From: a virus
Strand: one strand, 5' to 3'
IMG/VR virus record: IMGVR_UViG_3300046507_000434
Coordinates: 1 to 31,926 of that record
Length of the DNA stretch: 31,926 bases
Shown here: one piece after another, positions 3,977 through 21,316 of the stretch
Position numbering within the stretch: position 1 is the first letter of the stretch
Layout: every line of letters begins with the position of its first letter
Position numbers and translations under genes: made by a program
The notes under the pieces: generated by a model
Seen by the model: the letters and a program-made list of their open reading frames with translations, nothing else
Databases searched by the model: none
Told to the model about the DNA's origin: nothing

Positions 3977-4007
3977 GCTGGCCTCTCTGTTTAGCTGGTT
4001 CGGGTTA

Positions 4008-4055
4008 TGTCGTCACGACGACATAACGACTTGTCGCCGCGTCGCCGTGACGATT
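4008..4055 (+). repeat. Octad array R9 upstream of the par operon
   Basis: Units TGTCGTCA, CGACGACA, TAACGACT, TGTCGCCG, CGTCGCCG, TGACGATT. The first two form a near-perfect palindrome (TATGTCGTC / GACGACATA around two bases). The position, 32 bases before the first par gene, is where ParF/ParG systems place the centromere and operator, so this is the best candidate for the functional parS-like site and autoregulatory operator. Confidence 0.8.
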
Positions 4056-4482
4056 GCGAGACGATAAACCGAAAGGTCGGCCGGGCGCAAGTGGTAATCC
4101 CGCGTCCTTATGCACAAGCCGGGAAAACGCTCGGGCGTTTCCCCAACTTGCGCACAAGGCATCCTCGCGGCGTGCGGCCTACGGCGTGACTCGCTCCGCT
4201 CGCCTTGTTTAGATAGATTTCTCCTATCGACCCCCCGGCTTGCAAGCCCGCTTTTCAAAACCTCCATATGACCGGGAGCGCCTCGACGCCCACGCGCGAC
4301 GGCCGGCGTTATGCCACCGTCCACTCTCACGATAAGATTTTCGGGGGCCGTCAAGCCGCGCAGCGGCGTTTTAACCCCCGCTTGCGGGGGTCTGGATTTG
4401 AAGCGCCGTAGGCGCGCGGCCCTCGCGCAAAAGACAGAATCAGAGGAATCGTGCGCAAACCCGCGCCGTTGCTGGCTCGTGA
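4056..4482. other. Noncoding structured region between par operon and repL
   Basis: About 430 bases without a believable gene. Visible structures are an 8-bp inverted repeat GCGCAAGT (4085-4092) / ACTTGCGC (4146-4153) enclosing a second imperfect hairpin with GGGAAAACGC, and three hairpins in a row: GCCGC/GCGGC (4355-4367), ACCCCCGC/GCGGGGGT (4374-4391) and GCGCC/GGCGC (4403-4415). Divergent promoters for par and repL must lie in or near it. The combination suits a replication origin, or less likely a transfer origin, but no family-specific signature is recognised. Confidence 0.5.
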
Positions 4483-4584
4483 GGCTCATTTTTGAGCCCC
4501 TTTAGGCTCATTTTTGAGCCTTTCCATGTTGCATTGCAACAATTCGTGTGTAGTTTTTGAGTAGAAAAGGCTCATTTTTGATCC
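4483..4584 (+). repeat. Helically phased palindromes upstream of repL (iteron-like)
   Basis: GGCTCATTTTTGAGCC occurs at 4483-4498 and 4505-4520, and as GGCTCATTTTTGATCC at 4569-4584. A half copy (TTTTTGAG) is at 4554-4561. A different palindrome, GTTGCATTGCAAC, fills 4528-4540. The centres of these five elements (about 4491, 4513, 4534, 4556, 4577) are 21-22 bases apart, two helical turns, so all would face one side of the DNA. A further GGCTC half-site follows at 4591, again 22 bases on. The array ends about 90 bases before the repL start. It is a likely initiator-binding or copy-control site. Confidence 0.8.
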
Positions 4585-4674
4585 TTTACCGGCTCGCGGA
4601 AACGTGCGCATTGCGGCTCTTGTGGGCGAGCCGTTTACTTGATAAATTACGCGAAGTTCCGACAAGGAGGGCGT

Positions 4675-5166
4675 ATGGGCAAGGTGCGATTTCAGGGCGA
4701 GCGGGAGTTTCTCGACACGGCGACAGGCGAGATTTTCGGCGCGCAGGTCGTCGCGCGCGAGGTAGACGGCGACGCCGGTTTCGATAAAATTTGGCTCGGC
4801 GCAATCCTCGAATTGGTTAATGAGGTCGGCGGCCAAAAATACCGCGTGCTGCTGTGGTTGCTCCAAAACCGCGACGCCAAAAACGTTGTGCGCGCAACGA
4901 AAGAGGAGATAGCGAGCGCTACCGGCGTTGCGCGCGCGACGATTACGCGGCTGCTCGCGGCGCTCCGCTCGGCCGACGTGATTAGCGAGGTTCGCCGCTC
5001 CGTATGGCGGCTTAACCCCAACGTCGTATGGAAAGGCCAACACCACACGCGCATGTCTGTCTTGATCCAATACCGCGACGAGCGCGCCGAAGCACAGCGC
5101 GATCTTTTCGCGGAGCCCGAGGCCGAGCTTTTCCCCGATAACGTTCATCCGATTAAGGCCGCCTAA
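4675..5166 (+). CDS. repL: RepL-like plasmid replication initiator
   Basis: 163 residues from the ATG at 4675, which has AAGGAGGG five bases upstream; an upstream TTG at 4639 is less likely. The fold is a winged helix: TKEEIASATGVARATITRLLAAL (about residues 75-97) is the HTH, followed by a basic wing (SEVRRSVWRLNPNVVWKGQ, 104-122). The NPNVVWKG segment is the pattern I know from RepL-family initiators, first described on small Firmicute plasmids and now common in phage-plasmids. It is the only plus-strand gene in the left half. Its stop overlaps that of the primase gene (TAG on the opposite strand). It probably binds the phased palindromes just upstream or an origin inside its own gene. Confidence 0.8.
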   Translation: MGKVRFQGEREFLDTATGEIFGAQVVAREVDGDAGFDKIWLGAILELVNEVGGQKYRVLLWLLQNRDAKNVVRATKEEIASATGVARATITRLLAALRSADVISEVRRSVWRLNPNVVWKGQHHTRMSVLIQYRDERAEAQRDLFAEPEAELFPDNVHPIKAA

Positions 5167-20326: not shown

Positions 20327-21316
20327 TTAAAACATCCCCAAAATGCCGCCGCCGAGCGCGCTAAGCCCTTGCCCCGTACCGCCCGAACCAAAGATAGAGC
20401 CGCCGATACCTGCGCCGGCCGATGCTCCGCCGAGGAAACCGGCAAACGGGTTCGTGCTGCCTTGCTGCGTCGTCGTCGAGGTCGTGCTATACGGCGTTTG
20501 TCCGAGCGCGCCCTCTAGAATCGAGAGCTGTCGAATCGGCCAATTCTGGTTAGTGAGGTAGTTCTGATAGCCGACGTTATCCACATTCTGTTGCTGCTGT
20601 TGCTGGATATTGCCGGCGTTAAGAACGTTGTTATAGCCCTGCGTCGCCTGCGCGCTCTGCTGCGTGCCGAGCAAGCCGAGCACGCCCGCGCTTTGGTTTT
20701 GCAGCGTCGCGGCGTTGAGCCCCGCCGTTTGATTCGACTGTTGCGCGCTCTGCTGTAGCTGCTGCTGCGCTAGTGCCTGCTGCTGCGCGTTCGTGTAGTT
20801 CGCTTGGTTGAGCTGCGACGTGTTCGTCGCCATCGCGCGCGCATAGCCCTCATTCGTGAGAGCGTCTTGTACCGCGTTGCGCGTGCCGCCATACGCGCCC
20901 TGTTGCGTGGCGTTCGAATCGTTGCCGGCGTTCGCGATCTGATTTTGCCGTTGCAAATCAGAGTTCGTCGTGTCGATAACGTTTTGCGTGTACGGGTTGA
21001 GCTGCGAATTTACCGCGCCTTGGTTATAGCTCGTGCCGACTTGCGAGGGCGAGTATTGCCCCGCGCTTGTCGCATTTTGTACGCCCTGCGCGAGCGCGCC
21101 TTGCCCGGCCGTCGCGGATTGCTGCGCGAGGCCAAACGCATTTTGTTGCGTCGAGTTGAGCGGCGCTACCTGCTCGCCGGAATAGGGCGTAAAGGTCTGA
21201 TTAGCGGCCGGAACCGCGTAATTGTTGTAATTGTTTTGCCCCGCTTCCTGTACCCATTGCGGAACGCTATTGGTTGTCGATTGGCTCGACCCGCCGCCGC
21301 CGCTGCCTAGGCTCAT
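20327..21316 (-). CDS. Gln/Asn-rich putative internal virion or tail protein
   Basis: 329 residues, with GGGGSS at the start and a GG-rich hydrophobic C-terminus (FLGGASAGAGIGG). The middle is rich in Gln, Asn and Ala with a QQQQQQN run near residue 238. The start overlaps the upstream stop as ATGA, with AAGGA upstream. Position and composition put it with the ejection proteins. No family recognised with certainty. Confidence 0.6.
   Translation of the reverse strand: MSLGSGGGGSSQSTTNSVPQWVQEAGQNNYNNYAVPAANQTFTPYSGEQVAPLNSTQQNAFGLAQQSATAGQGALAQGVQNATSAGQYSPSQVGTSYNQGAVNSQLNPYTQNVIDTTNSDLQRQNQIANAGNDSNATQQGAYGGTRNAVQDALTNEGYARAMATNTSQLNQANYTNAQQQALAQQQLQQSAQQSNQTAGLNAATLQNQSAGVLGLLGTQQSAQATQGYNNVLNAGNIQQQQQQNVDNVGYQNYLTNQNWPIRQLSILEGALGQTPYSTTSTTTQQGSTNPFAGFLGGASAGAGIGGSIFGSGGTGQGLSALGGGILGMF

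Follow-up and report, generated by a model that had tools for sequence, protein, structure and literature searches.

Plasmids that replicate with RepL are widespread, ranging from single-gene 1.2-kb plasmids to phage-plasmids, and their origin, copy control and incompatibility have been described as hardly studied (PMC5703833). The pSN2-family plasmids among them are called rolling-circle in reviews (PMC5703833). Two other kinds of replicon offer points of comparison. The Rep_3 plasmid pSK639 has five 22-bp repeats upstream of rep (PMC5703833), and in the lytic replicon of phage P1 the origin, oriL, lies inside repL (PMC9948254). In the open-licence literature, no account of such an array with a 22-bp step was found for RepL replicons; this literature is incomplete for older subscription work, and priority is not claimed.

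The window analyzed here, the whole stretch of DNA at its full length, corresponds to a linear virus record of 31,926 bases. Among its genes are those for head, scaffold, virion and tail-fibre proteins, for a D5-type primase-helicase and for a DNA polymerase of family A. Its RepL matches PF05732 over nearly the full length of the family (residues 3-142, E 2.3e-28, 99 bits against a cut-off of 20), and the Pfam scan gives RepL and HTH families only, with no Rep_3 initiator domain. Structure prediction from the single sequence reached a pLDDT of 36; with five sequences, only the winged-helix core was usable (blocks at pLDDT 82-91), and the nearest structures to this predicted core are CRP-type domains (Z about 9.9 across 66 residues). 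The features around the gene are as follows.

4105-4160, unstranded: nested hairpin GGGAAAACGC..GCGTTTCCC with the DnaA-box-like TTATGCACA at 4108-4116
4483-4498, + strand: array site 1, GGCTCATTTTTGAGCC, 16/16, read directly
4505-4520, + strand: array site 2, GGCTCATTTTTGAGCC, the same as site 1 and 22 bp on, 16/16
4528-4540, unstranded: slot 3, odd palindrome GTTGCATTGCAAC, in phase and unlike the RepL site type
4548-4563, + strand: slot 4, degenerate site GTGTAGTTTTTGAGTA, 10/16, chiefly in its TTTTTGAG part
4569-4584, + strand: array site 5, GGCTCATTTTTGATCC, 15/16
4591-4595, + strand: slot 6, half site GGCTC
4615-4632, unstranded: GGCTC-N8-GAGCC, two half sites that face each other close to the start of repL
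4675-5166, + strand: repL, 163 aa, PF05732, recognition helix at residues 84-98

Direct reading of the sites confirms the row of palindromes with centres 21-22 bp apart that a sequence-only reading had placed upstream of repL, and the extra GGCTC half site that it had reported one step on is present. The six slots are centred at 4490.5, 4512.5, 4534, 4555.5, 4576.5 and 4598.5, giving steps of 22, 21.5, 21.5, 21 and 22 bp, and three of them (1, 2 and 5) are of the GGCTCATTTTTGAGCC type. GC drops from about 0.60-0.65 to 35-38% inside the array. The facing GGCTC-N8-GAGCC pair, an addition to the earlier list of sites, lies ~24 bp beyond slot 6, slightly out of phase, and is a candidate autoregulatory operator. 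The proposal that all of the sites share one face of the DNA holds only roughly: with 10.5 bp per turn assumed, a step of 21.6 bp drifts by ~3 bp (~100 degrees) over five steps.

As judged from these features and from the comparisons below, it is highly likely that the array is bound by RepL, and an origin role is likely as well. Taken as a whole, the array probably comprises the cognate sites of the window's own RepL in an iteron-like origin region directly upstream of repL. Slots 3 and 4 are poor RepL sites and count against this reading. An accident is an unlikely explanation for the phase of the slot-3 palindrome; with ~100 comparable palindromes per 31.9 kb, the chance of one falling within 1.5 bp of a slot is ~1%. 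The suggestion that a second protein is built into the assembly at this slot is unsupported, with no nameable partner protein and with further copies of GTTGCATTGCAAC in the window at chance level (10 found against 6.9 expected). The third slot is weak as well in at least one other RepL array, that of Acetobacter, and slot 3 of the window could just as well have decayed or play a structural part.

The array stands out within the window. Sites of the GGCTCATTTTTGAGCC-type 16-mer at ≤3 mismatches number four, three of them in the array, against 0.19 expected, and four is reached in 0 of 100 shuffles; at ≤2 mismatches there is none elsewhere in the window. When palindromes are defined by an arm of ≥6 and a loop of ≤6, the array is also the sole chain of three spaced 20-24 bp, and such chains arise in 9 of 500 shuffles. 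A stricter test for half sites in four slots gives z 2.8-3.4 for the window alone, the best value of 3.4 being reached by 3 of 25 shuffles; the modest score reflects the poor slots 3 and 4. The window-only evidence is good but not overwhelming, and the relatives carry the weight.

The comparison covered 33 PF05732 loci, the window among them, from Bacillota, Alpha- and Gammaproteobacteria, Campylobacterota, Bacteroidota and phages. Their repL upstream regions were scored for how well four phased sites, all built from a single half-site word and the reverse complement of that word, could be fitted, at spacings of 17-30 bp, against dinucleotide shuffles. The mean z over all 33 loci is 2.99 at 22 bp, 2.60 at 23 and 2.15 at 21, with values of 0.2-0.8 at 17-19 and 25-30 bp. 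At 22 bp, z exceeds 2 in 19 of the 33 loci and in 1 of 32 control stretches; the other 14 repL loci stay at or below 2. The same test applied inside and just after repL is flat (z about 0). With the window and its close relatives removed, the remaining 25 loci score z 3.39 at 22 bp (Wilcoxon near versus far, p 3e-7). An earlier score based on palindromes only, showing a weak, broad peak at 22-23 bp, was superseded by the half-site score. The arrays stand out particularly well in Sodalis phage phiSG1 (z 8.4) and in several Priestia plasmids, and the repeats of repL loci are visible by eye when the sequences are printed in rows of 22; the clostridial loci L045-L048 have no clean arrays. In the window itself, half sites with a 21-23-bp phase are present in the 300 bp that precede repL, with stronger z in its relatives. 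A central T-run is found on the repL-sense strand in 15 of 16 written-out arrays, which points to a shared site orientation, the 16 having been picked with the T-run in view, so that the count is a description and not a test.

Comparison with relatives, which the earlier reading had called for, thus finds the same layout in other letters upstream of repL in unrelated plasmids. It supports the idea of an initiator-type array with two turns per step and makes RepL a very probable reader. The array was also expected to be distinctive, on the grounds that RepL origins lie inside repL; that placement is true of the P1 protein, which falls outside PF05732, and an upstream array is common within the family. 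Several plasmids of 1.2-1.7 kb in which no gene other than repL is annotated (L007, L010, L027, L031 and L035) are informative here. An array is present in at least L031, with two exact 22-bp copies, and L007, which speaks against reading of the sites by a partition protein or by a phage repressor.

The window RepL found no relatives in viral_contigs or genome_contigs, nor did a search of viral_contigs with a two-sequence alignment, and scans with PF05732 had low yields in Alphaproteobacteria (1 of 385 genomes), Bacilli (2 of 398) and Clostridia (5 of 391). Some of the loci have features of their own. The product of gp23 in phage phiSG1 (L037), annotated as hypothetical, is a RepL (PF05732, E 1e-11), and a four-site 22-bp array of the TTACTC type is clear upstream of the gene; this suggests that phiSG1 can likewise replicate as a plasmid. 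A contig labelled Sphingomonas sp. (L013) encodes a RepL seemingly identical, over the compared stretch, to that of Priestia plasmid L012 and is probable contamination. Two 3454-bp sequences with identical RepL starts, L014 and L015, come from Clostridium beijerinckii and Lachnospiraceae assemblies, reflecting either a shared plasmid or contamination.

The half sites vary together with the protein. Half-site 7-mers were chosen by eye on the DNA, ahead of any comparison of proteins or helices, and their similarity tracks that of the recognition helix, residues 84-98 (Mantel r 0.49, p 2e-4), more closely than that of the rest of the core (r 0.24). Partial correlations are 0.45 for the helix given the rest and -0.06 for the rest given the helix. 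The strongest of 623 residue-base pairs links residue 87 with half-site base 2, where Arg87 goes with G in four of four cases and Leu87 always with T. At base 4, Lys88 is accompanied by G in four cases out of five and Glu88 by C in two of two. Two Priestia RepLs with 94% identical cores have Lys88 and Arg88, with half sites GGTGTAA and GGTTTAA, respectively. The locus pRGF232, which was not used in the derivation, agrees (half site GTACTGA, Leu87, Asp88). With lineages collapsed, the Arg87-G link has p 0.02, a value from few independent lineages and related sequences, and helix columns supply 5 of the top 20 residue-base pairs against 2.9 expected, a mild enrichment. In the chemistry of base reading, G is the usual partner of Arg and Lys, and C that of Glu. 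For the pSN2 family, residues 85-95 have been proposed to determine the specificity of incompatibility (PMC5703833), and these lie in the same helix that is linked to the half sites here.

Sites for RepL could also serve as an operator only, for self-repression and dosage, with the true origin (start or nick site) located elsewhere, for example at the 4105-4160 hairpin or a TAGATAAGAGTGAA box. This is rather unlikely, although several facts speak for it. The repL ATG follows the array at a distance of 80-190 bp, and several plasmids have a site <50 bp from the repL start. The TAGATAAGAGTGAA box keeps a nearly fixed distance to the first array site, 66-73 bp upstream of it, in L007, L008, L011, L012, L014, L016, L023, L024, L025 and L039, with weaker versions in L010, L022 and L035, and is a possible nick or opening site of RepL origins. 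Its complement may resemble the CTTATCTTGATA nick region of pC194-type plasmids. In addition, the pSN2 family is classed as rolling-circle, its dso being recognized by similarity (PMC5703833). However, the fixed distance from box to array suggests one assembled complex, and a pure operator would rarely need four to six phased sites kept across phyla. The best match to the box in the window is 9/14, in the wrong place and at chance level, and Acetobacter matches are at chance level too. Given this lack of a box, the full origin plan of the window may differ from that of other RepL plasmids.

The hairpin has a different distribution. Its core is common to window positions 4105-4160 and the Acetobacter RepL plasmid (L004, about 2572-2620), and it also occurs in Novacetimonas, Komagataeibacter, Pseudolysobacter and Caballeronia plasmids. 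Because at least two of these have no RepL nearby, the hairpin is probably a portable accessory origin element. A second exact DnaA-box-like site, TTATCCACA, is found far from the array at 20577-20585, in the structural-gene region.

It is very improbable that the array is instead a partition site to which the centromere protein of the nearby ParA operon (3976-2866) binds. The window has a partition-type ParA gene (PHROG 164, E 7e-35) within about 750 bp of the array, and repeats by par operons are often centromeres. Against this, the tiny repL-only plasmids carry the same arrays without par genes, and the half sites track the RepL helix. A separate perfect palindrome, GTTATGTCGTC-AC-GACGACATAAC (4004-4027), adjoins the par operon, lying right before it, and may itself be the operator or the centromere of the par system.

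That the sites are operators through which a repressor of the phage or a regulator of the host controls a lytic switch or repL is more improbable still: palindromes do precede an early gene here, and slot 3 is of a different type, but the site is absent from the rest of the window at ≤2 mismatches and plasmids without phage genes share the layout. Least credible of all are RNA hairpins or terminators of the repL leader, for although the single strand folds well (z -5.9) with one terminator-like match, any row of palindromes folds, terminators are at expectation (1 found against 1.2), no Rfam family matches, and a strict 22-bp step with protein-helix co-variation is unexpected for RNA.

If the array is the binding region of RepL and part of its origin, the small winged-helix protein would sit as one dimer on each palindrome, with helix residues 84-98 (P0001) reading the half sites around the central T-tract. 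Stacking at 21-22 bp would line the dimers up roughly along one side of the helix, and the lined-up dimers could bend or wrap the AT-rich stretch and open the strands nearby. The opened strands would allow the loading of replication proteins, here the D5-type primase-helicase and the family A polymerase, so that the origin would fire and replication would presumably start in this region. Occupancy of the array and of the 4615-4632 pair would probably also damp repL transcription and in this way set the copy number. A sigma-70 promoter scan found none.

A wider reading is that all PF05732 RepL replicons, which tend to be counted among rolling-circle plasmids and have had little study, would share one origin plan, a row of 22-bp dimer sites with, in many, a fixed box distance, and a simple helix-base code that links residue 87 to base 2 and residue 88 to base 4. 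Under this generalization, which has about an even chance of being correct, incompatibility groups would be predictable from sequence and phage-plasmids would swap repL and array as a cassette. The only phage relative found, L040, bears on this last point. Its primase is 69% identical and the neighbours are kept, while the repL slot holds a distant RepL homologue under the Pfam threshold (profile comparison 95.7% over 114 columns). Upstream of this Rep are different repeats (12048-11986, - strand), in which TTCCCGATTTCG recurs after 21 bp and a related TTCC word follows at a further 20 bp. It seems that Rep and array move as one cassette. The shared 22-bp array and the link from helix to half site offer cheap, direct tests of where RepL binds, of compatibility, and of iteron-like versus nicking-Rep initiation.

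Of the known systems, the closest is the 6.5-kb Acetobacter pasteurianus plasmid Apa386Bp6 (NC_021978, L004), which encodes the nearest RepL found (57.9% identical). It has GGTATCAAAATTGATACC and GGTGTCAAAATTGATACC 22 bp apart, then weaker sites and a palindrome beside repL. It differs in its half site (GGTATCA, against AGGCTCA in the window), in a central AAAA, in an array 60 bp nearer the gene and in being a plain small plasmid. The Firmicute RepL plasmids (the pSN2 family, pNE131, pOM1, pONE430 and those of Priestia) share the PF05732 initiator, the 22-bp phased sites and the T-tract centre, whereas their sites are AT-rich and the TAGATAAGAGTGAA box, which was not found in the window, is present in many of them.

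Comparisons beyond the family are looser. TubR, the winged-helix protein of TubZ partition on pBtoxis, gives a weak match to the RepL profile that is not significant (positions 41-113, E 0.27). TubR dimers bind repeat arrays, but their role is in partition rather than replication. Phage P1 RepL shares the name, a role as a phage replication initiator and a winged-helix-like match. However, it does not match PF05732, and its profile comparison with the window RepL is weak (30% probability over 55 columns, in the HTH stretch only). Rep_3 iteron origins such as that of pSK639 resemble the window in having tandem 22-bp repeats before the rep gene, likely for both origin function and autoregulation. 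Origins of Rep_3 iteron plasmids also combine such repeats with a DnaA box and an AT-rich region; beside its repeats, the window has one TTATGCACA at 4108 and a GC of 35-38% within the array, a possible correspondence. Unlike the Rep_3 systems, its initiator is without the Rep_3 domain, and its sites are palindromic, suggesting one dimer per repeat. The origin most likely works like an iteron origin, yet it belongs to no Rep_3 member and is distinct from P1 oriL.
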